Below are positions 4,041 to 33,540 of a stretch of 33,540 bases of DNA, piece after piece. A model generated the notes under the pieces. It saw only the letters and a program-made list of their open reading frames with translations, was not told the DNA's origin and did not search any database. Source of the stretch: Flavobacteriaceae bacterium (GTDB lineage: Bacteria; Bacteroidota; Bacteroidia; Flavobacteriales; Flavobacteriaceae); NCBI GenBank assembly GCA_028825365.1, contig JAPKAF010000016.1, positions 1 to 33,540 of the forward strand, given 5' to 3'. Each line of letters opens with the position of its first letter. Within the stretch, counting starts at the first letter, position 1. The position numbers were made by a program, and so were the translations under genes.

Positions 4041-5039
4041 TTACAGTGATTTTCTAAGTATTAAACTGTTAGGGTTTTCAACTTGAGCGAATTCATTATT
4101 TAAAATCATTTCGGCTAAGCGTTCTCCCATTAAGTTAAAATCGGTTGATATAGTTGTAATTCCGCCTTCTACAATTTCTTTTAAAAGTGTATCGTTGTAC
4201 GAAATAATGCCAATATCTTTAGCAAGAGTTAAATGCTCATCCTTAATTCTCTTTATGATTCGGATTAAATTTTTATCATCTAAAACGATGTATAATTCTC
4301 CTTTGAACAATTCTCTATCATTTAAAGTATCAATAATTTTATTTTGAATACCATTGTGAGCGCAAAACAAATTGAAGCCGTCTAAAATCCCCTTAGGTTG
4401 ACGCTCTTCGTTATACAATAAAATTATTTTTTGATATTTCTTTATTTGCTTCAATCCGGCTTGTAAACCTTTATATATATCTTTCTTAAAATTTTGATAG
4501 ATAGACGGATAATCTATTAGTTCTGAATGGATTTGGTCTAATATATAGACTTTACCATCTGGGAGTCTATTAATTACAGTCTCGGTTCCTTTTAAATTAG
4601 CAGGCATTATAACATAATAACTGTAACCACCAGCATTATCATTTATAAGTTTGTTAAAAACATCTAGGTTAAAATGATGGAAAAATATATTCACTTGAAC
4701 ATTCTCTCCCATACAAGTTGTAAAGGATTTGTATAAATCTTCTTTAAAAGAATTGAACTCATCAAAAAGTAAAAATATTTTTTGATTAACATCAATATCT
4801 TCGCTCAATACATAATAACCTTTACCAACAATAGATTGAACAATACCTCGAGTTTTTAATTCGTTGAATGCAGTAAGTACAGTATCTCTAGATAGGGAAT
4901 GTTGGTTTTTAATGCTATTCAAGGAAGGTAGTTTATCTCCTTTTTTTAGTGTACCATTTACTATAGCACTTTCAATAGAAATGACAATTTGTTTGTACTT
5001 AGGTATGCCAGATTTTTCTTTAATAGTTACAATTCCCAT
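4041..5039 (-). CDS. GntR-family transcriptional regulator with LacI/periplasmic-binding-like sensor domain
   Basis: 332 aa; winged-helix N-term 'KYKQIVISIESAIVNGTLKKGDKLPSLNSIKNQHSLSRDTVLTAFNELKTRGIVQSIVGKGYYV'; C-terminal sugar-sensor-like domain; divergent from susC. Confidence 0.92.
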   Translation of the reverse strand: MGIVTIKEKSGIPKYKQIVISIESAIVNGTLKKGDKLPSLNSIKNQHSLSRDTVLTAFNELKTRGIVQSIVGKGYYVLSEDIDVNQKIFLLFDEFNSFKEDLYKSFTTCMGENVQVNIFFHHFNLDVFNKLINDNAGGYSYYVIMPANLKGTETVINRLPDGKVYILDQIHSELIDYPSIYQNFKKDIYKGLQAGLKQIKKYQKIILLYNEERQPKGILDGFNLFCAHNGIQNKIIDTLNDRELFKGELYIVLDDKNLIRIIKRIKDEHLTLAKDIGIISYNDTLLKEIVEGGITTISTDFNLMGERLAEMILNNEFAQVENPNSLILRKSL

Positions 5040-5071
5040 GCTGCAAATGTAGGGTAAAATTTTAAATAAAT

Positions 5072-5091
5072 AAACCGGTAGGTACTGGTTT
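5072..5091. promoter_or_regulatory. Candidate operator: inverted repeat AAACC-n-GTA-nn-TAC-n-GGTTT
   Basis: AAACCGGTAGGTACTGGTTT; 8-nt matched arms, in the regulator/susC divergent intergenic region. Confidence 0.6.
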
Positions 5092-5119
5092 GTAAATTAG
5101 TTTTAAAATTGTATATTTC
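5089..5119 (+). promoter_or_regulatory. Candidate Bacteroidota-type promoter of the susC operon (-33 TTTG, 19-nt spacer, -7 TATATTTC)
   Basis: TTTG at 5089-5092, 19-nt spacer, TATATTTC at 5112-5119; close to TTG / TAnnTTTG consensus; -33 overlaps the palindrome. Confidence 0.5.
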
Positions 5120-5175
5120 ATTTTTTAATATAGTATTTAAAGTTCTAAATTAGAAAAACTAAACTAACAAAAATC

Positions 5176-8100
5176 ATGAAAAAAAAATCATTAAGCTTTA
5201 TAATAAATGCTCCTAGGTTGCTTCTATTTTTTTTGCTTTTCGTCTGTCATAGTTTTTCGCAAAATCAAATTACCATTTCTGGTAGTGTGAAAGACACAGA
5301 AGGTGTTCCTCTTGCTGGAGCAAACATTTTAATAGCTAACTCAAGCGTTGGTACTTCAACAGATTTTGACGGAAATTTTCAGTTAAATAATGTTTCGCCT
5401 AATGCAAAATTAGATGTTAGTTATATGGGTTACATCAATAAGGTAATCTCTGTAAATGGTAAGGTTTTATTTAATATTTTACTGGAGTTAAATAATAGTT
5501 TTTTAGATGAAGTAGTTGTTATTGGGTATCAAACCATTAAAAAGAGAGATTTAACTGGCGCCACATCTTTAATTGATCCTGATATCTCCAACAAAAACAT
5601 CACAAACTCTTTAGCAGAATCGTTACAGGGCTTAACTGCTGGAGTTACTGTAAGAAATGGTGGTCAGCCTGGACAAAACTCTCAAATAGAAATAAGAGGA
5701 ACATCTAGTTTCGTTAATTCTAATCCTCTTTATGTTATAGATGGGATGATTGCAGATGCCAACCAAACTATTAATAATAATGATATAGAATCTATACAAA
5801 TTTTAAAGGATGCTTCGGCTGCAGCTATATATGGATCTAGAGCAGCAAATGGAGTTGTTATTATTACCACTAAATCAGGGAAAGCAGGTCCTCTTAAATT
5901 ATCAATTTCATTTAATACGGGGGTTCAAAATATTCCTAAGACTTGGAGCTTAATGAATAGTAGACAGTTTGCCGATATGCAAACTACTAGTTTTATTAAT
6001 TCTGGGCTTACGCCTCCGCTTTCTGTTGGCGCAAATTTCAATCCAAATATTGATACTGATTGGCAGGATGAAATTATTAGAATGGGACTTACAAAAGATT
6101 TTAATATCTCAGCATCTGGTGGAGGGGAAAGTAGCTCTTATTTTCTATCTGGAAGTCATTTTGAAAATAAAGGTGTACTCATTGGGCGTTCTTTCAAAAG
6201 ATCTACTTTAAGGGTAAATACTGAACTATCAAGAGGTAAGGTGACTATTGGAGAAAATATATTATTATCAAACTCCAATACAAAACAACCCTTAGGGTCA
6301 TTTGATACAGGAAATCCTTTTTTCGACATGACTGTAATGTTACCAGTTATTCCTGTTCGTGGAGATGATTTTATTAATGATTTAAACCCAGGAGGTTGGG
6401 GGATAGGGAATAATGATGCTGTTACTTTTGCCAAAAATCAAGTAGCGGTTGCCGATATTTTACGAGAGAAAATAAATTTTGCAAAAATTATTGGAAACGC
6501 ATTTGTAAAAGTCGACTTCCTAAAAGGCTTAAGTTATAAGTTTAATGTAGGTGTTGAAGCTAGTTATGATTTTTCCAAAGGAATAAGACGCAATGGAGTT
6601 ACTCAGTTTAATGCAGCACAGAGACCAAGTTTTATTGCAGATAACAGATCTGGGTTTAAAAGCTTTTTAATTGAGCATACTCTTAATTTTAATAAGCGCT
6701 TAGGAAAACATAATATTAATGGTGTAGTTGGTGTTTCAGACCAACAAACAAAGCGAGATTTTTCTTTAGCTGTTAGAACTGATATCAGTGAGGTTAATGG
6801 TCAAATATTTACAGAAATAAATTCAGCTACTGGAACATCAACAAGTGAAGGCGGTATTACAGACCATTATAGAACATTTGGTTATTTAGGAAGAGTTAAT
6901 TATGATTATGATAATAAATATTATTTAACATTAACAGGAAGATTAGATAGCGATAGTCGTTTTAGTAAAGATAATAGAACTGGTTTTTTCCCATCAATTG
7001 CTGGTTCATGGAGAATAATTAAAGAAGATTTTTTTGACGTACCATGGATAAATGATTTAAAATTTAACGCATCCTATGGAGAGTTAGGTATTGTAACACT
7101 AGGGTCTTTTGACTGGCAAGGAACAATTAATAATAACACTATAGCTATTTTAGGAAATATACCACAAGTAGGTTCCTATCAAGCATCACTAGTTAATCCA
7201 GATTTAAGATGGGAAAACAGAAAAACTCAAAACTTTGGACTAGAAACCTCTTTATTTGATAATTCTTTAAAGGGATCAATGGCATATTATAATACCCTTT
7301 CAGAAGATGCGTTGGTAACTAATCTGCCAATTGCACTGTATCTAGGTAATTTAGGAGGAACTCCACCTGTAAATGCAGGGTCTATTAGAAATACTGGATT
7401 TGAGTTTGAAGCCTCTTATAAAAATACAGTTAACGATTTTAAATGGAATGTAGGCTTTAATTTAACAACTAATAAAAACCGTGTTGAAGAAGTAGGAAAC
7501 CGAGGAGAAGGTATAGATTATATACAAACAGGTTTAACCAGATCAAAAGTTGGGCAGCCTTTAGGGCAATGGTACCTGCTAAAAACAGATGGCATTTTTC
7601 AAAATGAAGCAGAGATTGATGCTCATAACTTAAATGGAAATCTTATTCAGCCTTTTGCTCAACCAGGAGATATTCGTTTTACAGACGTTGATGGAGATGG
7701 AAGTATTACTGATGAAGATAGAGACTTTAGCGGTTCATCTCCTTGGCCAACATTACAAACAGGACTACAATTTGGGGCTAACTATAAAGGTTTTGATTTG
7801 AGTTTACAATTTGTGGGGATATTTGGTAATGAAATATTTAATAGTGTTAGGAGAGAACTTGATTCTTATCAAAATACAAACTTTAGAAGTGATATTAATC
7901 CTTGGACACCATCTAACACAAATACTAGTGACCCTAGAATCGGCGTTTCTTTAAATGATCAAGGATTAGTGGACAATGCTAGATTTGCATCAGATAGATG
8001 GTTAGAAGATGGCTCATACTTAAGATTGAGAAACATTCAACTAGGGTATTCTTATAATGATGCTTTATTAAATAAACTTGGAGTGTCTGGTTTAAAAATT

Positions 8101-8250
8101 TACGCTAGTGGACAAAACCTATTTACCATAACAGACTATTCTGGATTAGATCCTGATGTACAAGGAAATGGAATTTTAGAAAGAGGTGTAGACAATGGAA
8201 ATTGGCCTTCAAGCAGAATTATTTCAATTGGGTTAAACGTAGAATTTTAA
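5176..8250 (+). CDS. SusC-like TonB-linked outer membrane protein
   Basis: 1024 aa; signal peptide, carboxypeptidase-like regulatory domain ('ISGSVKDTEGVPLAGANILI'), plug ('EIRGTSSFVNSNPLYVIDGMI', 'ILKDASAAAIYGSRAANGVVIITTK'), barrel ending in F. Confidence 0.97.
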   Translation: MKKKSLSFIINAPRLLLFFLLFVCHSFSQNQITISGSVKDTEGVPLAGANILIANSSVGTSTDFDGNFQLNNVSPNAKLDVSYMGYINKVISVNGKVLFNILLELNNSFLDEVVVIGYQTIKKRDLTGATSLIDPDISNKNITNSLAESLQGLTAGVTVRNGGQPGQNSQIEIRGTSSFVNSNPLYVIDGMIADANQTINNNDIESIQILKDASAAAIYGSRAANGVVIITTKSGKAGPLKLSISFNTGVQNIPKTWSLMNSRQFADMQTTSFINSGLTPPLSVGANFNPNIDTDWQDEIIRMGLTKDFNISASGGGESSSYFLSGSHFENKGVLIGRSFKRSTLRVNTELSRGKVTIGENILLSNSNTKQPLGSFDTGNPFFDMTVMLPVIPVRGDDFINDLNPGGWGIGNNDAVTFAKNQVAVADILREKINFAKIIGNAFVKVDFLKGLSYKFNVGVEASYDFSKGIRRNGVTQFNAAQRPSFIADNRSGFKSFLIEHTLNFNKRLGKHNINGVVGVSDQQTKRDFSLAVRTDISEVNGQIFTEINSATGTSTSEGGITDHYRTFGYLGRVNYDYDNKYYLTLTGRLDSDSRFSKDNRTGFFPSIAGSWRIIKEDFFDVPWINDLKFNASYGELGIVTLGSFDWQGTINNNTIAILGNIPQVGSYQASLVNPDLRWENRKTQNFGLETSLFDNSLKGSMAYYNTLSEDALVTNLPIALYLGNLGGTPPVNAGSIRNTGFEFEASYKNTVNDFKWNVGFNLTTNKNRVEEVGNRGEGIDYIQTGLTRSKVGQPLGQWYLLKTDGIFQNEAEIDAHNLNGNLIQPFAQPGDIRFTDVDGDGSITDEDRDFSGSSPWPTLQTGLQFGANYKGFDLSLQFVGIFGNEIFNSVRRELDSYQNTNFRSDINPWTPSNTNTSDPRIGVSLNDQGLVDNARFASDRWLEDGSYLRLRNIQLGYSYNDALLNKLGVSGLKIYASGQNLFTITDYSGLDPDVQGNGILERGVDNGNWPSSRIISIGLNVEF

Positions 8251-8261
8251 AAATAATAATA

Positions 8262-9773
8262 ATGAAAAATTTGATAATAATAATTGTACTAACATTTGGG
8301 TTTTTCTCATGCGAGGATGAGTTAGATATAGTAAACCCTAACGCATTAACAAACGAAAGTTTTTGGCAAAATGAGTCAGACGCCATTAAGGGAATAAATA
8401 GCTGTTACAGTACTTTGCATAGACCAGGTTTTTCAAGATGGCAACCCATGGCTTATGACTTACGTTCTGACGTAGGGGCAAGTTTTAGCCCATGGAGTGA
8501 TCTTGCAAACGCTATGAATAATTTTATCCAGTCAGATTCTAACTTTGGTCCAATTGTAGATATTTATTTTGATAACTATGCGGGTATATTTAGGGCTAAT
8601 CAAGTAATTGCCAATTTACCAGATATAGAAATGGATGAACAACTAAAATCAAGAATTTTAGGCGAAGCTTATTTTTTTAGAGGGATGCATTACTATCATT
8701 TAGCAAGTTTATGGGGTAATGTTGCTTTACAACTAGAGCCATCTAGCCCAACTGATTTACCATTAACATCTCCTGAAGCTGATGTTTGGGTTCAAGTTAT
8801 TAGTGACTTATCTGAAGCAGCCAGTAGGTTACCCTACAGTTATAATGATTACAATGATCAAGGAAGAATTACAAAAGGAGGAGCTTCTGCTTTGTTGGGT
8901 AAAGCATACATGCAGATTCAAGACTACTCAAATGCAAAATTAGCATTAGATGACATAGTTGTTGGAAGCGGAGCAAGTAATTATGACTTAATGCCAGATT
9001 ATTACGATAATTTTAAAATAACATCTGAATTTAATATAGAATCAGTTATTGAGTGGAGCTATATTGATAACCCTACAGAAGTTACCGACAATGATGTTGC
9101 GACAGCTAATCATAATTATGGAACATCAATCGGACAGTTTTATGGGCCTCCTGGAATAGGATTTACAGATGGTGAAGCGTTAAGATGGGTCGTTGGAGAA
9201 TTTGAAATAGAAACAACGGTAGCAAATGAAAGAGACCCTAGATTACCAGTAACGTTTCTCTATGATTATACAGATGAATTTGGGCCAGCTTCCACATTGG
9301 TTTATGGTCAGACTTTTCAGCAAAGATATGGTAATAACAATCGTGTGTTTCTTAGAAAATTTCTTCATGATCATATAAGAGACTTTGAAGGATTTAGAGG
9401 TATAAATAACTATAGGTTTATAAGATATTCAGATGTCCTTTTAATGTATGCAGAGTGTTTAAATGCTACAGGAGCTACTGGTGATGCTTATCAATATGTT
9501 GATAGAGTTAGAGATAGAGCAGGTTTGGCACCATTGCCTACAGGAATGTCTCAGCAGGATTTTTTAGAACAAATTAAGCATGAACGCCTTCTAGAATTAA
9601 CAGGAGAGGGGCACCGTTTTAATGACTTAAAAAGATGGGGTGATTTAAATTCTTCATTGAGTTCTAAAGATTCAGGTTTTAATAATTTTCAAACGGGAAA
9701 ACATGAATTATTGCCTATTCCTCAAATAGATTTAGATATTAACCCTAATTTGGAACAAAATCCAGGATGGTAG
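8262..9773 (+). CDS. SusD/RagB-like outer-membrane glycan-binding lipoprotein
   Basis: Start corrected from 8202 to ATG at 8262 (MKNLIIIIVLTFGFFSCEDELDIVNPN, lipobox FFSC); SusD features incl. 'AYFFRGMHYYHLASLWGNVAL', 'IKHERLLELTGEGHRFNDLKRWG', 'LLPIPQIDLDINPNLEQNPGW'. Confidence 0.96.
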   Translation: MKNLIIIIVLTFGFFSCEDELDIVNPNALTNESFWQNESDAIKGINSCYSTLHRPGFSRWQPMAYDLRSDVGASFSPWSDLANAMNNFIQSDSNFGPIVDIYFDNYAGIFRANQVIANLPDIEMDEQLKSRILGEAYFFRGMHYYHLASLWGNVALQLEPSSPTDLPLTSPEADVWVQVISDLSEAASRLPYSYNDYNDQGRITKGGASALLGKAYMQIQDYSNAKLALDDIVVGSGASNYDLMPDYYDNFKITSEFNIESVIEWSYIDNPTEVTDNDVATANHNYGTSIGQFYGPPGIGFTDGEALRWVVGEFEIETTVANERDPRLPVTFLYDYTDEFGPASTLVYGQTFQQRYGNNNRVFLRKFLHDHIRDFEGFRGINNYRFIRYSDVLLMYAECLNATGATGDAYQYVDRVRDRAGLAPLPTGMSQQDFLEQIKHERLLELTGEGHRFNDLKRWGDLNSSLSSKDSGFNNFQTGKHELLPIPQIDLDINPNLEQNPGW

Positions 9774-10042
9774 TTGTTAAAAACATAACTAGAATAGTTG
9801 GTTTTGTCATTTTACTTCTATGCTCAACCATTAGTTCTTGTGTGTCGTCTAGCGATAATGGCAACCTTAATGAGGAAACAGAAGATTCTTCCATCGTTGA
9901 CACGACAATTGAGTCGGCCACTTTCAAGAACCCAATATTAAATGAGGGAGCAGACCCATGGGTTTTTAAAAGTGGAGATGAGTATTTAGTTACGTATACA
10001 ACAGGCAACAATATTACTTTGTTGAGAACCAATAAAATATAA
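9767..10042 (+). pseudogene. Lipoprotein carrying only the first blade of a GH43-type beta-propeller (truncated GH43)
   Basis: 91 aa; lipobox 'ISSC', then 'FKNPILNEGADPWVFKSGDEYLVTYTTGNNITLLRTNKI' and stop; ATG overlaps the susD stop (ATGGTAG); next gene starts 2 bp after the stop. Confidence 0.75.
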
Positions 10043-10044
10043 AA

Positions 10045-11109
10045 ATGAAGAAAAAAATATTTTTGGTAATTGCTATATTATTAGCAATTAATGTTTGTAT
10101 TTCGCAAGAGAATAATAAATGGTCAATAGAAAAGGTAGGTAATTGGTATAACAATCATAAGTGGATTACAGGCGCTAACTTCAATCCAAGTTCAGCTATA
10201 AATCAACTAGAAATGTGGCAGTCAGATACATTTGATCCTGAGACTATTGATAGGGAATTGGGTTACGCAGAAGCTATCGGATTTAATACCATGAGGGTTT
10301 ATCTTCACAGTCTTGCATACAAAGCAGACCCAAAAGGGTTTAAAGAAAGAGTAGATTCATATTTAAAAATTGCCGATAATCACGGTATCAAAACTATTAT
10401 TGTACTGTTTGACGATGTTTGGGGAGCGACACCTAAAATAGGAAAACAGGCAGTACCAAAACCAGGTATACATAACTCAGGTTGGGTTCAAGATCCTGGA
10501 GATCCTGCATCAAAAGAAGCGAAAAATTTCCCTGAGCTAGAAGTATATGTTAAAAATATTATTAACACATTTAAAAATGATAAAAGAGTTTTATTATGGG
10601 ATTTATACAATGAACCGGGTAATTCTGGAAAGTTTAAGGAATCAGTTCCTTTATTGGAAAAGGTATTTATTTGGGCAAGAGAGGTAAATCCGAGCCAGCC
10701 TTTAACTGCTGGAATTTGGAAATGGAGTAAAAAGTTTCAGGAAGTTAATGAGATTCAAGCACTCAATTCGGATGTTATTACATACCATCATTACGGAGAA
10801 CCTGAAGATCATTTAAAAGTTATTAATTTACTTAAAACACATGGACGTCCATTAATTTGTACTGAGTATATGGCAAGAACAAAAAATAATCGTTTTTCAA
10901 ATACGCTTCCATTATTAAAAGATGAGAATATTGGAGCGATAAACTGGGGTTTAGTTGCCGGGAAGTCTAATACAATTTATCAATGGGACACCCCAATTCC
11001 AAGTGGTGATGAACCGACCGAATGGTTTCATGATATTTTCAGAAAAGATGGGACTCCTTATCGTCAAGATGAAGTTAATTTAATTAAAAAATTGAATTCT
11101 AAAGATTAA
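10045..11109 (+). CDS. Exported GH-A clan glycoside hydrolase (cellulase/xylanase-like TIM barrel), specificity unknown
   Basis: 354 aa; signal peptide; 'LLWDLYNEPGN' (acid/base Glu after Asn) and 'PLICTEYMAR' (candidate nucleophile Glu). Confidence 0.8.
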   Translation: MKKKIFLVIAILLAINVCISQENNKWSIEKVGNWYNNHKWITGANFNPSSAINQLEMWQSDTFDPETIDRELGYAEAIGFNTMRVYLHSLAYKADPKGFKERVDSYLKIADNHGIKTIIVLFDDVWGATPKIGKQAVPKPGIHNSGWVQDPGDPASKEAKNFPELEVYVKNIINTFKNDKRVLLWDLYNEPGNSGKFKESVPLLEKVFIWAREVNPSQPLTAGIWKWSKKFQEVNEIQALNSDVITYHHYGEPEDHLKVINLLKTHGRPLICTEYMARTKNNRFSNTLPLLKDENIGAINWGLVAGKSNTIYQWDTPIPSGDEPTEWFHDIFRKDGTPYRQDEVNLIKKLNSKD

Positions 11110-11138
11110 TCGGTTACAATAAAGTTTAAATAATAATA

Positions 11139-12314
11139 ATGAGGTACAAGATATTTTACAATTTTATAGTTCTTTCTGGATTGTTGTTAGTAACATCATC
11201 TTGTAAGAATATAAAAACGCAAAACAGTGAAGAAAAAGCTGAAATAATAACAAAAGATACTTTAACCTATAAGAATCCACTTGATGTTAAGTTTGGTGAC
11301 CCCTATATTTTGGATGATCAAACTGGCACTTATTACTTGTATGGAACAGGTGGAGGTGCAGTAGATGGATTTTCAGCATATTCTTCAACGAATCTTGTAG
11401 ATTGGAAATATGAAAAACAAATTTATTTTGGAAACAAAGAAGATAGCTGGTGTATAAGTGCATTTTGGGCTCCAGAATGCTATAAATTTAATGGTAAATA
11501 CTATTTATTTTACAGCGCAAATTGGAGAGAGAACCCAAATAACGAATTAGAAAACTTTCATATTGGAGTTGCTGTTTCAGATAGCCCAATTGGACCTTTC
11601 GAAGACATTAAAAATAAACCACTTTTTGAACCTGGTTACCCAATTATTGATAGTAATGTTTTTCAAGATGAAAACGGGAAATATTATTTATATTATTCAA
11701 GAGTTTGTTATAAGCACCCCGTAAAAAGCGAATTGGCTCAATGGGCTAAGGACAAGGGTCTTTTTAATGAAATAGAAGAAAGCTGGATTTATGGTGTTGA
11801 ATTAAGCCCAGATTTTAAATCGGTAATTGGAAAACCTGTCTTATTGTTGCAACCTCCTAAAACATTAGATGACAAAAATTCAGAGTGGGAAAACCGCTCC
11901 GTTACCTTGGATAGTGTTAACAGGCGTTGGACTGAAGGCTCATACCTTTTTAAAAAGAACGATCTTTATTATATGATGTATTCAGCCAATCACTATGCAG
12001 GCGAAAATTATGCTATTGGTTATGCCACTTCAAAATCTCCTTTAGGACCATTTAAAAAGTCAGATAGCAACCCTATATTAGAAAAGAACTCTAATAAAGG
12101 AGGTGATGTAACTGGGACTGGGCATAACAGCGTTTTACATTTAAAAAATGCTGATAAAATGTTCTGTGTTTACCATGGAAGAACCTCTAAAACTGGCGAG
12201 AAAAGAGTTGTATTTATTGACGAAATGAGAATTTTAAATGATGGTTCCTTGAAGGTTTATGGTCCAACCACTAGTCGTAAAACAATGCCATTGTTAGAAA
12301 ATAAAAATAAGTAA
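11139..12314 (+). CDS. GH43-family glycoside hydrolase lipoprotein
   Basis: 391 aa; lipobox 'VTSSCKN'; 'FGDPYILDDQTGTYYLYGT', 'FWAPECYKFNGKYYLFYSA', 'PIIDSNVFQDENGKYYLYYSR', 'RWTEGSYLFKKNDLYYMMYSAN', 'TGTGHNSVLH'. Confidence 0.92.
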   Translation: MRYKIFYNFIVLSGLLLVTSSCKNIKTQNSEEKAEIITKDTLTYKNPLDVKFGDPYILDDQTGTYYLYGTGGGAVDGFSAYSSTNLVDWKYEKQIYFGNKEDSWCISAFWAPECYKFNGKYYLFYSANWRENPNNELENFHIGVAVSDSPIGPFEDIKNKPLFEPGYPIIDSNVFQDENGKYYLYYSRVCYKHPVKSELAQWAKDKGLFNEIEESWIYGVELSPDFKSVIGKPVLLLQPPKTLDDKNSEWENRSVTLDSVNRRWTEGSYLFKKNDLYYMMYSANHYAGENYAIGYATSKSPLGPFKKSDSNPILEKNSNKGGDVTGTGHNSVLHLKNADKMFCVYHGRTSKTGEKRVVFIDEMRILNDGSLKVYGPTTSRKTMPLLENKNK

Positions 12315-12338
12315 CACTAATCTATAAAATTCAATAAC

Positions 12339-14075
12339 ATGAAAAAATTTACTAAAAAATCCGTTAAATTTATGGCGATTTGTATCGCTCTGTTGTATTT
12401 TCAAAGTGGAAACTCACAATCTTTTACGAACCCAGTTGGAGACTTATCTGACCCTCATATTACATATATAGATGGGTTTTATTACTATACTGGTACAGTT
12501 GGTAATAGGGTAGCACTTAAAAGAGCTACAACATTAGAAGGTCTAAAACATGTAGGATTAACAACTATTTTTCAACCTGGAGATTCAGGTGCCCAGGAAG
12601 ATCATTATTGGAGTTCAGAAGTACATAAGTTAGATGGCATATGGTACGTTTATTATACAGCCGCTTCTGAAGGTACCGATAATAATACTCAAAGAAACTA
12701 TGTTATTGAGTCCTCTGATTCTAATCCATTAACAGGAACATGGACTTTTAAAGGGCAACTTTTTGATGCTTCAGCAAATCATTATGCAACAAATCCCACT
12801 GTAACCGAGATTAATGGCACACGTTATTTCATTTGGGCAGGTGTGTCAGATTCAGGAATTTCTCCTTTGAATCTATATATTTCTGAAATGACTAACCCAT
12901 GGACTTTATCAGGGTCAAGAGTTGAAATATATACTTCTGGAGATCTAACAGAAACAATAAGTGGTGATGCACCAAATGCCTTAGTTAAAGATGGTAAAGC
13001 ATTTCTAACATATACGGTAAACGGTTGTGGTACTTCTGAAGGTAAAACAGGATTAATGTATATGGACGATGATACAAATAACCCATTATTAATAGCATCA
13101 TGGACAAAAGAAGTTTCAGCTGTTTTTGATGATAATCCAGATGTTTCGTCATATAACCCTAATCATCAAACTTTTTTCAAATCTCCAGATAACACAGAAT
13201 ATTGGTTTTCATTTACTACAAGATTTGATGATGGTCCTTATTGCGATAACCAAAGGTCAACAAGGGCACAAAAGTTTACTTTTAATGAAAGTGGTATTCC
13301 ACAATTTGGAACCATTTCAGCAATAGGTGTACCAATTGCAGCACCAAGTGGAGAACCTACATTATCTGCAGGTACTCCTGTTCAAAATGGTCTTTATAGA
13401 ATAAGACCAATAGCAGCATCGGGGAGTGAAACATTGGAAATAGGAGGTATTGAAATTTGGGGAGGATCAAATGTAGGACAATGGTTTGATGATTCAGATG
13501 AGATTCATCATAAATGGTATTTACAAGCTACAAGTGTTGCAGGAGAGTATATAATTATATCAGCTTTTAATGGTTTAGCAATAGAGGTTGGAGGTTGTAG
13601 TACTGACGATTTTGCTAATATTAATATGTGGTATCCATCTGGTGCACCTTGCCAAATTTGGGAGATAGCTGATTTGGGTTCTGATGAATATAGACTTACC
13701 AACAAGAATAGTGGTATGGATATGGAGTTAGAGAATGGAGGTAATAATATATATCAAAATACCGCTAATGGTTCAGATTTTCAGAAATTCAAATTAGAAT
13801 TTATAGAATCAACATTTAGTGTTGCTGATTATGATTTATATAGTGATATTAAAATTTTCCCTAATCCTGCCAAAGATTATTTTACCATAAGAGGATTAGG
13901 TACAAAAAAAACGGAGATAATAATTACTGATATGCGTGGAAGGGTTGTTACAAAGCAACAAAATATTAAAGACGAGATTCAAGTTGATGCTACTTTTCTT
14001 AATTCTGGCTTATATATCCTTTCAATTAAAACTGAAGACAACAACATAATAACTAAAAAATTAATAATTGATTAA
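12339..14075 (+). CDS. GH43-like protein (altered active site) + ricin-type/CBM13-like domain + T9SS C-terminal sorting domain
   Basis: 578 aa; signal peptide; GH43 scaffold, ricin-like region ('HHKWYLQ','CQIWEI'), tail 'IKIFPNPAKDYFTIRG...LNSGLYILSIKTEDNNIITKKLIID'. Confidence 0.9.
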   Translation: MKKFTKKSVKFMAICIALLYFQSGNSQSFTNPVGDLSDPHITYIDGFYYYTGTVGNRVALKRATTLEGLKHVGLTTIFQPGDSGAQEDHYWSSEVHKLDGIWYVYYTAASEGTDNNTQRNYVIESSDSNPLTGTWTFKGQLFDASANHYATNPTVTEINGTRYFIWAGVSDSGISPLNLYISEMTNPWTLSGSRVEIYTSGDLTETISGDAPNALVKDGKAFLTYTVNGCGTSEGKTGLMYMDDDTNNPLLIASWTKEVSAVFDDNPDVSSYNPNHQTFFKSPDNTEYWFSFTTRFDDGPYCDNQRSTRAQKFTFNESGIPQFGTISAIGVPIAAPSGEPTLSAGTPVQNGLYRIRPIAASGSETLEIGGIEIWGGSNVGQWFDDSDEIHHKWYLQATSVAGEYIIISAFNGLAIEVGGCSTDDFANINMWYPSGAPCQIWEIADLGSDEYRLTNKNSGMDMELENGGNNIYQNTANGSDFQKFKLEFIESTFSVADYDLYSDIKIFPNPAKDYFTIRGLGTKKTEIIITDMRGRVVTKQQNIKDEIQVDATFLNSGLYILSIKTEDNNIITKKLIID

Positions 14076-14099
14076 TATTTGTTATTGAAAATATTAGAT

Positions 14100-15866
14100 A
14101 TGACCTCACATATAGTTAAGTTAACAAGATGTATTTGTTTGATGGTGTTTATTTGTTGTTCGCAGCTCATAATGTCCCAATCATTTACTAATCCAATAGG
14201 CAGTATGGCCGATCCGCATATTACTTATATAGATGGATATTATTATTATACAGGAACAACAGGCGATGATGTTTCAATGAAAAGGTCATTGACTCTTGAA
14301 GGTCTCAAGCAGACAAGCTTAATTAGATTATTTGGACCAGGTGATACAGGAGCCCAGGCGGGAAATTACTGGGCTCCTGAACTTTTTAAATTAGATGGGA
14401 ATTGGTATATATATTACACAGCCCCTCAAACAGGAACAAATACAGATACTCAAAGAACTTATGTGTTAGAGAACACCAGTCCCGATCCTCTTTCAAATAA
14501 TTGGGTATTTAAAGGTAAAGTATCTTCTCCTGGATCTGATTATTGGTCTATAGACGGTACAATTTTAGAACTTTCAGGTAATCGATATTTTTTATGGTCA
14601 GGTATAAGTGCAACTACTCATTATGAAGGATATAATAAGCCACAACGAATCTATATATCATTAATGAGTAACCTTTGGACTTTATCAGGAGCAAGAACTT
14701 TATTGTTAAGTCCAGGTGAATTATCAGGAAGTAATATTGGTAATGTGGTCGAAGCTCCATCAATTCTTATAAAAGATAATAAAATATTCCTGACCTACTC
14801 TGCTAATGGATGTTGGACAAGCGAATATAAGTTAGGTATAATGTCTCTAGATATTTCTGAAGATCCATTAAATATTAATTCTTGGGCAAAAGATCCAGAT
14901 CCAGTTTTTGTAAGTAACCCCGTAAACAATAGCTATGGTCCAGGGCACAATTCTTTTTTTAGTTCTCCTAATGAAACTGAATTTTGGCTAGCATACCACG
15001 CAACTCCAAACCCGTCTGGTGAATGTGGCGATACAAGAACTACAAGGGCACAAAAGTTAACATTTAATAGTAATGGTATTCCTCAATTTGGAGAAGTAAG
15101 AGTTGTAGGAGAGCCTTTAGAAGCTCCTGCAGGAGAGCCTAATTTGTCAACAGGAATTATTGCAAACGGATTATATAAAATTAATCAAAAAAACACAACC
15201 AAATTAGTAGAAATAAGTGGTGCCGTTAATATAAATCCAGCAGATATTGTTCAGTGGGAAGATAACGGAGGATTACAACAGCAATGGTGGATTCAATCTA
15301 CAGGAGATGGTTATTACACCATAATATCTAACTTAAGTGGTTTAGCTATGGAAGTAGGAGCTTGTGAGCTTAATGAATTTGCTAATATTAATATATGGAC
15401 ACCCAATGGTGCTAGTTGTCAATTATGGGCAATAGAAGACCTAGGCTCTGGAGACTATAAATTTATAAATAAAAATAGTGATAAAGTTATGGAAGTAACT
15501 GCAGCAGGAATAGATAATAATGGCTCTAACATACAGCAAAGTACTTGGGAAAATTCCAATAACCAAAAATTTAATCTTGAGCTAATTGGAGAAGCTCTAA
15601 ATGTTGATACCTTAAACTTCGATGCAGATATTATTGTTTACCCCAATCCTGCTAATAATAAATTCGCTGTTTCGGGACTCAATTCAGTAGGAAAAAAACA
15701 TATTAAGATTTTAAGCATGCTAGGAAAGATAGTAGGTGAATATAAAACCAATAAGAGTAGCTTGAATATAAATACTAATCATATTCAGTCTGGATTGTAT
15801 ATCATACAGATAGCTTCCGAGAGTTATAAAACAGTTTTTAAGAAAATAGTTGTAAATAAAAAATGA
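14100..15866 (+). CDS. GH43-family glycoside hydrolase + ricin-type/CBM13-like domain + T9SS C-terminal sorting domain
   Basis: Paralog of previous gene; ATG at 14100 preferred over TTG at 14079; intact 'DPHITYIDGYYYYTGT', 'YWAPELFKLDGNWYIYYTA', 'SIDGTILE', 'VVEAPSIL', 'YGPGHNSFF'. Confidence 0.93.
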   Translation: MTSHIVKLTRCICLMVFICCSQLIMSQSFTNPIGSMADPHITYIDGYYYYTGTTGDDVSMKRSLTLEGLKQTSLIRLFGPGDTGAQAGNYWAPELFKLDGNWYIYYTAPQTGTNTDTQRTYVLENTSPDPLSNNWVFKGKVSSPGSDYWSIDGTILELSGNRYFLWSGISATTHYEGYNKPQRIYISLMSNLWTLSGARTLLLSPGELSGSNIGNVVEAPSILIKDNKIFLTYSANGCWTSEYKLGIMSLDISEDPLNINSWAKDPDPVFVSNPVNNSYGPGHNSFFSSPNETEFWLAYHATPNPSGECGDTRTTRAQKLTFNSNGIPQFGEVRVVGEPLEAPAGEPNLSTGIIANGLYKINQKNTTKLVEISGAVNINPADIVQWEDNGGLQQQWWIQSTGDGYYTIISNLSGLAMEVGACELNEFANINIWTPNGASCQLWAIEDLGSGDYKFINKNSDKVMEVTAAGIDNNGSNIQQSTWENSNNQKFNLELIGEALNVDTLNFDADIIVYPNPANNKFAVSGLNSVGKKHIKILSMLGKIVGEYKTNKSSLNINTNHIQSGLYIIQIASESYKTVFKKIVVNKK

Positions 15867-15891
15867 ATACTTAAATAAACACAAAATAAAT

Positions 15892-17037
15892 ATGCATACA
15901 AGAAAACTAATCTTACTATTACTTATATTTTTTAAAGTTAGTACAAGTTATGCACAAAATTTCAGCATGAATGAGCATCAGATTAATCTATTAGATAGGA
16001 GTCAGTTTGAAAAAAAAATAAACGGAAAGGATATTAGCCTATATGTACTAAGTAATCAGAATGGGTTGGTATCAGAAATAACTAATTACGGAGGAAAAGT
16101 TGTTTCGCTGTGGGTGCCAGATAGATTGGGTAATTATGAAGATATAGTACTAGGACATCCAAATATTGATGATTATTTAATCTCTAAAGAAAAATATTTT
16201 GGTGCTTTAATTGGACGTTATGGGAATAGAATTGCTAATGGCAAATTTTCTTTAGAAGGTAAAGAATATTCTTTGGCAAGAAACAATGGAGACAATCATC
16301 TTCATGGAGGGAATCGTGGTTATGATTCTGTAATTTGGGATGCAAAGCAAATTGATAATCAAACTTTAGAATTAAGGTATATTTCTAAAGATATGGAGGA
16401 AGGGTATCCAGGAAACCTTACTATCTTGGTTATATACAAACTAACTGATGCAAATGAACTGAAAATTGAATATAGAGCATCTACAGATAAAACAACTGTC
16501 GTTAATCTAACTCATCATTCTTTTTTTAACTTAAAAGGAGCAGGAAAAGGAACCGTCAACAACCATTTATTACAAATAAACGCTGCTTATTATACGCCTG
16601 TTGATGAAGGTTTGATCCCAACTGGAGAAATTACCAGTGTAAAAAATACACCCTTTAATTTTCAAAAGCTAACAGCAATTGGAGAAAGAGTTAATGATAA
16701 TCATAAACAATTAAAACATGGGTTAGGTTATGATCATAATTTTGTACTCAATCAAAGTTTAGAAGGTCTTAATTATGCAGCAAAAGTTATTGAGCCTATT
16801 TCTGGCAGAACAATGGAAGTTTATACTAACGAACCGGGTTTACAGTTCTATGGAGGCAATTTTTTAGATGGTAGCGTTATTGGAAAGAATAAAAATAAAT
16901 ATAAGTACAGAACCGCTTTTTGTTTAGAAACTCAGCATTTTCCTGATAGTCCAAATCAACCAAATTTTCCTACAACAAAATTAAACCCAGGAGAAGAATA
17001 TTATTCTGTCTGCATATATAAATTTTCAACTTTTTAA
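15892..17037 (+). CDS. galM: Exported aldose 1-epimerase (mutarotase)
   Basis: 381 aa; signal peptide; 'EITNYGGKVVSLWVPDRLGNYEDIVLG', 'FGALIGRYGNRIANGKFSLEGK', 'NLTHHSFFNLKG', 'EPGLQFYGGNFLDG'. Confidence 0.93.
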   Translation: MHTRKLILLLLIFFKVSTSYAQNFSMNEHQINLLDRSQFEKKINGKDISLYVLSNQNGLVSEITNYGGKVVSLWVPDRLGNYEDIVLGHPNIDDYLISKEKYFGALIGRYGNRIANGKFSLEGKEYSLARNNGDNHLHGGNRGYDSVIWDAKQIDNQTLELRYISKDMEEGYPGNLTILVIYKLTDANELKIEYRASTDKTTVVNLTHHSFFNLKGAGKGTVNNHLLQINAAYYTPVDEGLIPTGEITSVKNTPFNFQKLTAIGERVNDNHKQLKHGLGYDHNFVLNQSLEGLNYAAKVIEPISGRTMEVYTNEPGLQFYGGNFLDGSVIGKNKNKYKYRTAFCLETQHFPDSPNQPNFPTTKLNPGEEYYSVCIYKFSTF

Positions 17038-28618: not shown

Positions 28619-28864
28619 ATGAATAATTTTAGTCATTACAAATTAGATCTACATGGTACATTTTACAAAGATGTAAGCACAAAGGTAGATAGGTTTATTA
28701 GTAAATGTATAGTAGAAAAGGCCCTAGAGGTTGAGATTATTACAGGAAATAGTGATCGCATGAAAGAGCTGGTTAATGAAGTTTTGTTAGAGTATAATTT
28801 AAAGAGTGAAACTCCAATCTATAACAACGGAACTCTACTAATTAATATGTTAATTAAGTTGTAA
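28619..28864 (+). CDS. Stand-alone Smr-domain protein
   Basis: 81 aa; 'YKLDLHGTFYKDVSTKVDRFI' LDLHG motif, 'LEVEIITGNSDRMKELVNEVLLEYNL'. Confidence 0.75.
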   Translation: MNNFSHYKLDLHGTFYKDVSTKVDRFISKCIVEKALEVEIITGNSDRMKELVNEVLLEYNLKSETPIYNNGTLLINMLIKL

Positions 28865-28911: not shown

Positions 28912-29040
28912 ATGAGTAGCGAATTCTTTGGTAATAAGAGTAAAGATAAATCCCTTGAGAAAAAAGGGGTTAAACAAAAGTTTAAAAATAGTACTTCTTT
29001 TAAAACTTCAGCAGTAAGAAAGACTGGTAGAGGTAAATAA
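28912..29040 (+). CDS. Putative 42-aa basic microprotein, MSSEFFGNKSKDKSLEKKGVKQKFKNSTSFKTSAVRKTGRGK
   Basis: Not in ORF track; ATG at 28912, TAA at 29038-29040, packed between Smr gene and esterase gene (5 bp). Confidence 0.6.
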   Translation: MSSEFFGNKSKDKSLEKKGVKQKFKNSTSFKTSAVRKTGRGK

Positions 29041-29045
29041 TAAAA

Positions 29046-30137
29046 ATGAGAAATTATCTCCACTCATTATTATTTATAACCTCTTGTAATTTTGTTTTTT
29101 CACAAAACTGTGATTCTGTATCTCTTGATAATATTAGTAACCCTGGGCCTTACAATTATGAGGTTATTTTAGAAAGTGACGGAATGAGAGATGGTCCAAA
29201 TTATTATGGAGCAACTTTATACTATCCAACTAATGCCGATGGTCCGTTTGCTAGTTTAGTCCTAGTTCCAGGTTATGTTAGCCCTGAGTATACTGTTTCA
29301 TTATGGGGTCCTTTTTTGGCATCCCATGGAATTATTGTTATGACTATAGGCACTAATTCACTTACTGATTTACCTCAAGATAGGGCCGTAGCACTTTTAG
29401 ACGCTGTTCAAACACTTCAAGAAGAAAATAATCGTGAAAACTCTCCTGTTTACCAAAATATTGATTTAGATAAATTTGCCGTTGGTGGGCACTCTATGGG
29501 TGGAGGTGGAGCTCAAATTGCAGCTACTTTAAATAATAATCTAAAGTCTGTGATTAGCTTAACTCCGTGGATAGAGCCTTGGCTTATTAGTTCTGATTAT
29601 TTAAATCACTCTGTACCATTATTAATAATTAGTGGAGAAAATGACTCAACTGCTAATCCAGAGGAGCATGCGAATCTACATTATCAATATACCCCTATGT
29701 CTACTCCTAAAGCTATTTATGAAGTTCAAAATGGTAGTCACTCTGTTGGTAATTATCCTACATCAGCTAATAACTATATGGGAAAAATTGTGCTAGCGTG
29801 GTTAAGTAATTTTTTAATAGAGGATGAGTGCTATTATCCTTTATTGCTAGAAACTCCGGAGTTTGCATCTCAATATATAAACAACCTAGATTCATTCAAT
29901 TTAATTCAACAGAATTTTATCGATATATCATTTTATCCAAACCCAGTAGTTGATATCTTAACTATAAAAAGTGATTATGCATTCTCAATTAGATATAAAG
30001 TAATAAATACTCTTGGTCAACAGTTATTAGATGGCCACATAGCTCGAGGTATTTATGAAATGGATTTATCTGATCTTAAAAGTGGTTTGTATTACATTAT
30101 TATTAAAGAAAATATTTATAAATTTTTAAAAAATTAA
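29046..30137 (+). CDS. Secreted PET-hydrolase/cutinase-like alpha/beta hydrolase with C-terminal T9SS sorting domain
   Basis: 363 aa; signal peptide; 'LVPGYVSPEYTVSLWGPFLASHGIIVMTIGTNSLTDLPQDRA', 'GHSMGGGGAQ', 'IISGENDSTANPEEHA', 'NGSHSVGN'; tail 'DISFYPNPVVDILTIKS...LKSGLYYIII'. Confidence 0.88.
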   Translation: MRNYLHSLLFITSCNFVFSQNCDSVSLDNISNPGPYNYEVILESDGMRDGPNYYGATLYYPTNADGPFASLVLVPGYVSPEYTVSLWGPFLASHGIIVMTIGTNSLTDLPQDRAVALLDAVQTLQEENNRENSPVYQNIDLDKFAVGGHSMGGGGAQIAATLNNNLKSVISLTPWIEPWLISSDYLNHSVPLLIISGENDSTANPEEHANLHYQYTPMSTPKAIYEVQNGSHSVGNYPTSANNYMGKIVLAWLSNFLIEDECYYPLLLETPEFASQYINNLDSFNLIQQNFIDISFYPNPVVDILTIKSDYAFSIRYKVINTLGQQLLDGHIARGIYEMDLSDLKSGLYYIIIKENIYKFLKN

Positions 30138-30152
30138 TACTTAATATTACAT

Positions 30153-30701
30153 ATGAAAACTTTATTCTTTTTACTTATACCTTCGATTATGTTTAGTCAA
30201 ACTTATGAAACTCAGAAATACACCCTAGTATCCAAATCAGATAATTTTGAAATTAGATATTATCCAAAATCATTAAAAGCGAGAGTAGTTTCAAACGCAA
30301 ATTCTAATAATAACTTCATGAAACTATTTAGGTACATTAGTGGGAATAACGAAGAGCAAAACAAGATTTCAATGACTACTCCAGTGTATATGAATAATGA
30401 TTCTGTTGGTAGTTCAATGGACTTTGTAATGCCTAGTAAATTTGATTTAAATAATATATATAAGCCCAGTGATAATGATGTTAAAATTATAGAATCTAAA
30501 GCTGGTTATTTTGCAAGTTTTAAATATGGGGGGTACTCTAATTCCTCTAAAGTTGAAAACTACACTAACAAGTTATATAAAATATTAGAAGATAAAAATA
30601 TAGAACACAAAGGGAATCCATCATATGTCTCGTACAACAGCCCTTACAAATTTTTTAGTAGAAGGAATGAAATTATTGTTGAAATAAAATATACAGAATA
30701 G
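30153..30701 (+). CDS. Exported SOUL family (heme-binding-like) protein
   Basis: 182 aa; signal peptide; 'YTLVSKSDNFEIRYYPKSLKARV', 'FRYISGNNEEQNKISMTTPVYM', 'VEIKY'. Confidence 0.88.
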   Translation: MKTLFFLLIPSIMFSQTYETQKYTLVSKSDNFEIRYYPKSLKARVVSNANSNNNFMKLFRYISGNNEEQNKISMTTPVYMNNDSVGSSMDFVMPSKFDLNNIYKPSDNDVKIIESKAGYFASFKYGGYSNSSKVENYTNKLYKILEDKNIEHKGNPSYVSYNSPYKFFSRRNEIIVEIKYTE

Positions 30702-31118: not shown

Positions 31119-33540
31119 TTAATTTTTTATAATTTTCATTGATTTAGAGATGTTATTAACTAAATCTGTAATCTTAATGATATAAATACCAGCACTTAAC
31201 AAGCGTAAGTTAATATTTTTTGAATTACTTTCTAATACTTTTTTTCCTGTTATATCGTATATAATTGAATTAACTTGATTTACACTTTTTATATTAAGTA
31301 TGTTGTTAACTGGGTTTGGATAAATTTTAAAATCTGTAGTATTTATAATTTCATTTTCACTTAGTGAAAAATCACTCCATTTCCATATTCCGCCGGCTAA
31401 TTCTCCATTAAATGAACCTGCCCATCCCATTGTTGAGTTTAAAAATTCAACTCCTAAAAAAGTTTCATTGTCAATGGGATTCCATGTCAATCCACCATCA
31501 AAACTTTGCGATGACCCAGATTGAGATGTAGAGAAAATCGTTTCAGTTCCTTCAACATAAGATACTCCAATGGTATTAACTGGGCCGTTAGGGTCTATTT
31601 GAGACCAACTTTGTCCAGAATCATATGTTCTGTATACATTTGTTCCACTTACTATTATGCCATTATTAGCATCACTAAATGATATTGCACTTCCACTAAA
31701 ATCATTTACTGGGCATTGGTACGCTTGCCAATTATTTCCTCTGTCAGTTGAATGATATAGTGTAGTTGAATTTGTAGTATACCATACATTATCCCCAACA
31801 ACTTCTATTTGAGCAACATATCCATATTCACCTCCACCTGGGTTAGGGATATTAGCAGCTGGTACAGCTTCCCAATTATCACCTCCATCAGAAGTTACAT
31901 ATAGTTCGTATTCTCCACCAATTGGATCTCCTTGAGCAAATCCATAATTCTCATCCCAGAAGTAAACTACATTAGTAAAAGAACCAGTTGAGTTGTATGA
32001 AGCAGAATCTTGGCGTGTCCAACTATTACCTCCATTAGTTGTTTTCCATATACCTCCTACATCTCCACCTATAGTAGGATATCCTACAGCCCATGCTGTA
32101 GTAGAGCTAATAGCAGATACCATAGCAACTCCTAAATCAGTATTTCCTAAGTTAATAGTTCCGCTATTCCAAGTTGAACCTCCATTAGTAGTTTTTGTAA
32201 ATACTTGATAATTTTCACCATCTCCACTCCCATTATATCCAGAAGCCCATACAATGTTTTCATCCACAATTGAAATATTTCTAATTCCTGTGCTAACATT
32301 ATCAAAAGAGGTGTTTTGACTAATCCAAACTCCTGAGGGTTCCTCAGATACAATGATATGAGAATCTTTTGATAAGGTTTGTGTACTTTGAGAATTAGTA
32401 ACCTCTAAGCTTACATCATAAACTCCTTGTGTTGAGTAAAATACTTCTGGTGGATTTTGTCCTGAATATGATGAAGGATTTCCACCTTCAAAAGTCCATT
32501 CCCAATTTGTAATTTCATTTCCACCACCAATTGAATTATCGGTAAAAGTTACATTACCACCCTCATACACATTTAATTGTGAAGTATTGAACCATGGAAT
32601 TGGATCACCTGTTAAAGTAGATTGGACACACTCTAATGCAGCATGAGCATCTATTCTATTTCCAATATTTTGATCTATTTCAACTCCTGTAGACTGTAAA
32701 CAATTTAAAATTTCATCATGATTTAAGCTTGGATTAAGACTTAGCATTTGTGCTACTAATCCTGCAGCAAATGGTGCTGCCATTGATGTTCCACCGAATT
32801 TAGCATAATCATCTCCATCAGCCGTATAAACAGAACTAAGTAATCCTCCAAATGTATATCCGCCAGGTGCTGCAATATCAACCCATGCAACTAAGCCTGC
32901 ATTATAATTTGAAAAAGAAGATTTTAAATCGTTGCCATCAACCGACCCTACGCCGATTACATTTTGATAACCCGCTGGATAAAATATGGTATTGACATTA
33001 TCATTTCCTGCAGCAGCAATAAATATAACTTCTGGATAGTTATTTATTAGGTTTTGTATGGACGCTGATTCATTTGCAGAGCCATAGGACATACTTACAA
33101 CATTAGCGCCATTCTCACAAGCCCATTGAATTCCATTATAGCTATTGTATATAGATCCTCCATCGGCAGAGCTAGGAGTAGCTTTAACGGCTATTATCTC
33201 TGCATTTCCACCAAGTGAGGCAATCCCAATTCCATTATTAATATCTGCTGCTGCTAAACCAGCACAGTGTGTACCGTGAGACCAGCCTGAGCTTTGATTG
33301 TAATAAACTGCTGGATTAGCATCGTTATCATTGTCAGAAACATCCCTTTGTTTATATATTGTTAAATCACTATGGTTATTAGCAACCCCATTATCAATAA
33401 TTGCAACTTTAATATTGCTATTCCCTAATGTTATGTCCCAGGCCTCTTCTGAATCTACTTGAGTATGGTACCATTTATTATTTCCATAATGTTGAGCATC
33501 GTTAGGTATAAAGTCTAGTTTATAAATTGGTTCTTTTTCT
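31119..33540 (-). CDS. S8 (subtilisin-like) protease, PKD domain, YCF48/BNR-like propeller, T9SS C-terminal domain; N-terminus outside window
   Basis: Frame stays open from 33092 to the window edge: ...HTQVDSEEAWDITLGNSNIKVAIIDNGVANNHSDL...SSGWSHGTHCAGLAAADINNGIGIAS...; catalytic Ser in 'FGGTSMAAPFAAGL'; PKD 'NVTFTDNSIGGGNEITNWEWTFEGG'; repeated 'TTNGGSTW/TSDGGDNW/STDRGNNW'; tail 'FKIYPNPVNNILNIKS'. Confidence 0.92.
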   Translation of the reverse strand, partial: EKEPIYKLDFIPNDAQHYGNNKWYHTQVDSEEAWDITLGNSNIKVAIIDNGVANNHSDLTIYKQRDVSDNDNDANPAVYYNQSSGWSHGTHCAGLAAADINNGIGIASLGGNAEIIAVKATPSSADGGSIYNSYNGIQWACENGANVVSMSYGSANESASIQNLINNYPEVIFIAAAGNDNVNTIFYPAGYQNVIGVGSVDGNDLKSSFSNYNAGLVAWVDIAAPGGYTFGGLLSSVYTADGDDYAKFGGTSMAAPFAAGLVAQMLSLNPSLNHDEILNCLQSTGVEIDQNIGNRIDAHAALECVQSTLTGDPIPWFNTSQLNVYEGGNVTFTDNSIGGGNEITNWEWTFEGGNPSSYSGQNPPEVFYSTQGVYDVSLEVTNSQSTQTLSKDSHIIVSEEPSGVWISQNTSFDNVSTGIRNISIVDENIVWASGYNGSGDGENYQVFTKTTNGGSTWNSGTINLGNTDLGVAMVSAISSTTAWAVGYPTIGGDVGGIWKTTNGGNSWTRQDSASYNSTGSFTNVVYFWDENYGFAQGDPIGGEYELYVTSDGGDNWEAVPAANIPNPGGGEYGYVAQIEVVGDNVWYTTNSTTLYHSTDRGNNWQAYQCPVNDFSGSAISFSDANNGIIVSGTNVYRTYDSGQSWSQIDPNGPVNTIGVSYVEGTETIFSTSQSGSSQSFDGGLTWNPIDNETFLGVEFLNSTMGWAGSFNGELAGGIWKWSDFSLSENEIINTTDFKIYPNPVNNILNIKSVNQVNSIIYDITGKKVLESNSKNINLRLLSAGIYIIKITDLVNNISKSMKIIKN

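Follow-up and report, generated by a model that had tools for sequence, protein, structure and literature searches.

The window analysed here, a 33,540-nucleotide stretch of DNA from a Flavobacteriaceae bacterium, encodes an esterase that adds to the PET27/PET30 family of Bacteroidetes. Members of this already described family, T9SS-tailed flavobacterial proteins included, are promiscuous, secreted and cold-active esterases whose activity on PET is weak. The best explanation of the new protein is very probably the same: a secreted, T9SS-exported promiscuous serine carboxylesterase. Its serine would attack the ester bonds of short-chain lipids and aliphatic polyesters (e.g. algal or bacterial polyesters), with BHET and polycaprolactone likely accepted as substrates. 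Amorphous PET might also be hydrolysed slowly, as a promiscuous and not a selected role. With it, the known T9SS-exported polyester esterases extend to a further lineage, marine Flavobacteriaceae with small genomes. Potential plastic-degrading enzymes are numerous; this is one of them, and its prior is modest.

29046–30137, plus strand: PET27/PET30-type secreted serine esterase of 363 amino acids (open reading frame, profile searches, PDB match and model).
29142–29849, plus strand: alpha/beta-hydrolase catalytic domain, residues 33–268 (profile, model and Foldseek).

The reading frame opens with ATG at 29046 and its stop codon ends at 30137, and the reverse strand across this interval carries many stops and is not open. 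The Pfam PETase profile PF12740 matches residues 53–275 with 179.5 bits (E 1.1e-52), passing its curated cut-off of 28 bits; the model for the BHET hydrolase BdeA (NF051441) reaches 144 bits, below the 520 required. By sequence, the top solved relative is by a wide margin PET30 of Kaistella jeonii, which aligns from residue 14 to 362 (E 1.7e-89), followed by a Burkholderiales cutinase and then by Ple629, AdCut and forms of IsPETase. The strength of these two matches, together with purifying selection within the genus (dN/dS of about 0.14–0.24 in within-genus pairs), leads us to dismiss chance resemblance. The AlphaFold2 model, based on a 74-sequence alignment, has a mean pLDDT of 89.9, with the catalytic domain mostly above 95. 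Its top folds in a Foldseek comparison with the PDB are PET30, Ple629, the cutinase 7cwq, IsPETase (rmsd 1.7 A) and LCC (rmsd 2.5 A). The rmsd to PET30 itself is large (10.8 over 318 columns), presumably because the alignment extends into the linker and tail region and the target is a tail-less construct.

A sequence-only reading of this DNA had placed the protein in the PETase/cutinase lineage, and had named kinship with enzymes of Aequorivita and Kaistella. Both proposals hold: the PETase profile, the full-length PET30 match and the nearest folds (PET30, Ple629, IsPETase and LCC among them) agree, and Aequorivita loci share about 54% identity with the catalytic domain. The protein could instead be a relative of dienelactone hydrolases or PAF-acetylhydrolases that merely resembles PETases, since these belong to the same clan and their profiles do match weakly. 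Yet those matches reach 13–17 bits against 179.5, the closest structures are without exception PETases or cutinases, and the nucleophile is a serine in GHSMG as opposed to the cysteine of classical dienelactone hydrolases. Best hits to these two families, the outcome that the reading had named as counting against itself, were looked for and did not occur, and we consider this alternative extremely improbable. Where the reading went astray was in overrating how unusual the candidate is: a scan of one genome collection confirmed at least 138 related loci, nearly all from marine or aquatic Bacteroidota.

Residue counts were taken from 82 aligned family sequences with duplicates removed, the genome-collection relatives being the best 80 of 138 loci. 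The predicted active site comprises the following residues, together with the clamp residue W175 discussed below.

29274–29276, plus strand: Y77, oxyanion-hole and clamp aromatic (alignment; the column holds Phe in 67/82 and Tyr in 12/82).
29487–29501, plus strand: nucleophile elbow GHSMG, residues 148–152, with S150 as nucleophile and M151 as oxyanion residue (alignment).
29643–29645, plus strand: D200, catalytic acid (conserved in 82/82).
29739–29741, plus strand: H232, catalytic base (conserved in 82/82).

From alignment and model, we assign the esterase a predicted alpha/beta-hydrolase fold with the triad S150-D200-H232, an oxyanion hole made by Y77 and the backbone of M151, an aromatic clamp (Y77/W175) above an open cleft, and a type II-like extended loop behind the base histidine. 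S150 is as invariant as the other two triad residues (82/82), M151 is found in 81/82 sequences, and the W175 column is aromatic in 82/82 (W in 62, Y in 16 and F in 4). Alignment to the IsPETase variant 8d1d pairs Y77 with Y87, H149 with W159, S150 with S160, M151 with M161, W175 with W185, D200 with D206, H232 with H237 and S233 with S238. That is, every residue named from sequence (Y77, S150, M151, W175, D200 and H232, as well as H149 and H208) is at its stated position and in a column homologous to 8d1d, and the serine noticed after the base histidine is indeed the one of the Ideonella enzyme. The two histidines described as cutinase-like are likewise present, but only one is unusual: H208 is the family norm (68/82), and histidine at elbow position 149 is a minority state (18/82, with Trp in 62/82).

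The putative substrate motif of the esterase is thus Y77-M151-W175 (aromatic-Met-aromatic), with Tyr where Phe is reported for the PET27/PET30 esterases, whose motif is given as Phe-Met-Trp/Tyr/Ala. The combination of Tyr-Met-Trp with the elbow histidine occurs in the window protein alone among the 82 sequences. This motif lends some credit to the possibility of a true PET hydrolase, that is, an enzyme whose cleft carries the Tyr-Met-Trp of IsPETase and LCC tuned for aromatic polyesters. Y77-M151-W175 matches IsPETase, LCC and PET93/94, histidines at the elbow and after PEE are found as in thermophilic cutinases, and PET degradation is known for family members. We nevertheless regard a true PET hydrolase as quite unlikely, as the mutants and surveys of characterised relatives point the other way. 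In PET30, F80Y, Y178W and the two exchanges combined each abolished activity on BHET and PET (PMC8767016). PET28 and PET29 share the motif of PET27 and have no measurable PET activity (PMC8767016). Even the active members are modest, as PET27 is 4.7-fold and PET30 about 250-fold less active on PET foil than IsPETase, and their authors judged neither to be a PET esterase in the strict sense (PMC8767016).

A motif-based ocean survey with in vitro tests adds to these doubts, as PET activity was confined there to proteins bearing the M5 signature, with none in motif classes M1–M4 (PMC12224614). This signature, DxDxR(Y)xxFxC after the base histidine, is absent from the window protein, from PET30 and from all 82 relatives; given that PET30 is weakly active without it, M5 is not an absolute requirement. 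Taken together, the PET30 clamp mutants, PET28 and PET29, and the M5 survey show that residue hallmarks are weak predictors of PET activity.

The same survey assigned Flavobacteriales sequences to motif classes M2–M4 (PMC12224614). The inactivity of the members tested is what speaks for the converse alternative, a lipase or short-chain esterase at the cell surface that does not act on polyesters (a 'pseudo-PETase'), as does a longer loop by W175, which may partly cover the cleft. Against it, PET27–30, the four close T9SS-tailed relatives that have been characterised, all cleave polycaprolactone and Impranil, and the predicted fold has an open cleft, 1.7–2.5 A from cutinases. An enzyme inactive on polyesters is, in our judgement, unlikely. 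For the promiscuous esterase that we favour, the closest guide is the activity of PET27–30 on PCL, BHET, Impranil and p-nitrophenyl esters (PMC8767016), from which we infer polyester activity here. By this analogy, hydrolysis of BHET or polycaprolactone would be expected with reasonable confidence, and measurable hydrolysis of PET film would be possible, if rather doubtful. A selected role in PET use is very unlikely.

The clamp itself differs from that of most relatives in the loop that follows it.

29568–29609, plus strand: clamp residue W175 with the elongated loop up to residue 188 (WIEPWLISSDYLNH), which exceeds that of PET30 by five residues (alignment).

From W175 to the next strand, the window genus has 17 residues (175–191); PET30 and most relatives have 12, and IsPETase has 13. 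W175, the clamp tryptophan already proposed from sequence, is the homologous position; a second tryptophan in the following loop, W179, has to be added to that description. W179 aligns without gaps from the right and was weighed as the clamp residue, but it falls within an insertion and no other sequence has it, whereas W175 directly follows the invariant P174 in the column that is aromatic throughout. A long loop is present in 17/82 sequences, with Trp as the clamp residue in all 17. It accompanies Tyr77 in 11 of 12 cases and occurs in 6 of the 70 other sequences (Fisher p 1e-8, which is not a fair test as the sequences are related). The tree needs seven changes for Tyr77, suggesting that the link between Tyr and long loop arose more than once, with the qualification that deep branches are poorly resolved and relatedness inflates the contrast. 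A speculative reading, which we think improbable, is that a clamp tyrosine may be tolerated only with the five-residue longer loop, so that the window genus would have a compatible Tyr-Met-Trp cleft along with a re-wired disulfide. If true, it would account for the failure of PET30 F80Y, and clamp and loop transplanted together would restore or raise polyester activity. A natural Tyr-Met-Trp with a longer clamp loop in any case offers a direct test of why the clamp swaps in PET30 failed.

Disulfides set the window genus apart as well.

29109–29111, plus strand: C22, family-invariant cysteine by the mature N-terminus (80/82).
29829–29831, plus strand: C262, family-invariant cysteine and proposed partner of C22 (81/82).

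These are the only two cysteines of the mature window protein. The active-site disulfide of IsPETase is absent, as its C203 and C239 correspond to G197 and V234. A PET30-type C-terminal disulfide is absent too. In the PET30 crystal this bond joins C262 and C285 in PET30 numbering (PMC8767016), and counting on the PET30 sequence shows the cysteine to be the second of the DCYC motif, i.e. the C264 column of the window protein, two residues past C262. That column is Cys in 77/82 sequences and Tyr in the window protein, which has no later second cysteine. Because the C-terminal disulfide is reported for PET27–30 and not for PET57–59, we take it as common in the family but not defining. The window protein and three congeners have lost the second cysteine and its partner, whereas C22 and C262 are retained (the contig of one congener stops short of the N-terminus and does not cover the C22 position). 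The only other sequence without the second cysteine, L095, also lacks C22 and C262; it is encoded on a contig labelled Gammaproteobacteria, possibly through transfer or misbinning. The earlier cysteine survey was therefore right that both IsPETase-type pairs are missing, but it overlooked the conserved C22. Co-conservation of the two cysteines leads us to propose that C22 and C262 may form a disulfide, possibly the only one in the protein. Such a bond would anchor the N-terminus of the mature enzyme where the catalytic domain ends, replacing the C-terminal disulfide lost in the genus.

By disulfides and loops, the esterase as read from its sequence fits none of the described PETase types. Type I (LCC: a single C-terminal disulfide and no extended loop) does not apply because the disulfide is missing and the loop is present. 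Type II (IsPETase and PE-H: two disulfides and an extended loop) fails on the disulfides, both missing, even though the loop is equally long. Type III (HaloPETase1: GHSQG, no clamp and two relocated disulfides) is at odds with the GHSMG elbow, the clamp and a cysteine complement of only C22 and C262. The protein instead mixes known states within a known family, namely a type II-like loop and serine, a type I-like elbow histidine and no type-defining disulfides.

Comparison with individual enzymes conveys the same picture. PET30 (PDB 7PZJ, PMC8767016) shares the full length including the T9SS tail, the triad, the lack of an active-site disulfide and a 16-residue extended loop after the base histidine. 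It differs in sequence (51% catalytic-domain identity), in its F-M-Y motif and elbow Trp, in a clamp loop shorter by five residues and in its C262-C285 bond. PET27 and its Aequorivita relatives (PMC8767016) are similar in the tail, the F/Y-M-W clamp and the missing active-site disulfide, but have Phe at the oxyanion position and, in the Aequorivita homologues, a C-terminal disulfide. IsPETase (type IIb) resembles the window protein in fold, Y-M-W, the serine after the base histidine and the length of the extended loop; it differs at about 38% identity (IsPETase variant) and by its two disulfides, elbow Trp, M5 signature and lack of a T9SS tail. LCC (leaf-branch compost cutinase, type I) shares the fold, Y-M-W and GHSMG, whereas the type II-like loop, the serine, the tail and the missing type I disulfide distinguish the window protein from it. 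Finally, PET93 and PET94 of Maribacter and Arenibacter are also flavobacterial, secreted and Y-M-W, but are reported without a PorC tail and outside the PET27/PET30 cluster (PMC13188925). What is new here, for the window genus, is the loss of the C-terminal disulfide, the retained C22/C262 pair and the longer loop after the clamp tryptophan.

Two further features bear on export.

29046–29102, plus strand: predicted Sec signal peptide, residues 1–19, probably cleaved before Q20 (by eye, from relatives ending in xA/S|Q).
29934–30125, plus strand: T9SS type A C-terminal sorting domain, residues 297–358 (PF18962, 1e-8; TIGR04183).

The model is disordered at the predicted signal, with residues 1–3 and 9–19 below pLDDT 50. 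C14 was weighed as the mark of a lipoprotein signal, but this cysteine is missing from the congeners, whose signals all finish in a cleavage site of the Sec type; judging by eye, we therefore prefer a Sec signal. The sorting domain, already recognized in the sequence-only reading, scores 28.6 bits with TIGR04183 (cut-off 23), and the genome encodes the T9SS translocon protein SprA (2756 bits) and 23 T9SS tails. The precursor would cross the inner membrane via Sec, and the T9SS would then carry the enzyme through the outer membrane and cut off its tail, leaving it surface-bound or free. A literature search for further PETases with a Por_Secre_tail returned nothing beyond the works cited here.

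Relatives at 1e-20 occur in 15/400 genomes of Flavobacteriaceae, including two genomes of the same genus, and the gene is present in 4/5 genomes of the genus. In the tree, the window protein lies inside the bacteroidetal group, on a genus branch with 100/100 support and outside the core Aequorivita/Kaistella clade, with the deeper order poorly resolved. Being ancestral to the genus and common to many marine lineages, the gene most likely predates plastics, a further point against a true PET hydrolase. A mobile origin was rejected, as plasmid matches are distant (at most 38% identity) and the locus is conserved across the genus. One related locus (L071) holds tandem, diverged PETase-family genes (4971–6107 and 6189–7421), the second with Leu for the oxyanion Met.

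The genome measures 1.43 Mb and is 73% complete. The esterase gene is flanked by a 42-amino-acid ORF (28912–29040) and a SOUL haem-binding gene (30153–30701), with SDR, CBS, DinB, HTH and subtilase genes around them. This order is retained in MED-G126, in FRAM18_bin211 and, up to the contig limit, in SI036_bin70; none of the other relatives shares it. The SOUL gene, on the same strand and 15 bp downstream, adjoins the esterase in all four genomes of the genus but at no locus elsewhere, and we therefore see at most a local arrangement and not a functional partner. Nothing about esters can be read from the neighbouring genes (CBS pair, Smr domain, SOUL and subtilase), and a promoter scan found sites no more numerous than in shuffles. 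Neither a tannase-type MHETase nor a Rieske ring hydroxylase was found in the 73% complete genome, and there is thus no sign of terephthalate use; this absence is weak evidence given the incomplete genome, the one Rieske protein encoded by each of two congeners and a tannase search that was also without a match in any control genome.

Several other genes in the window can be described. The upstream 42-amino-acid ORF is basic, conserved in two congeners and without a Pfam match. A short Smr-domain ORF (28619–28864, 81 amino acids) is divergent from the CBS-pair gene, and a subtilase with a PKD domain and a T9SS tail occupies 31119–33540, its N-terminus beyond the contig end. A polysaccharide-utilisation-like block at 4041–17037 comprises a GntR-type regulator, SusC, SusD, a TIM-barrel glycosidase, three GH43 proteins, two of which carry ricin-type lectin domains and T9SS tails, and an aldose epimerase. 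Beside it are a galactokinase, a galactose-1-phosphate uridylyltransferase and a sodium:solute symporter, and the block suggests the use of arabinose- or galactose-containing glycans.
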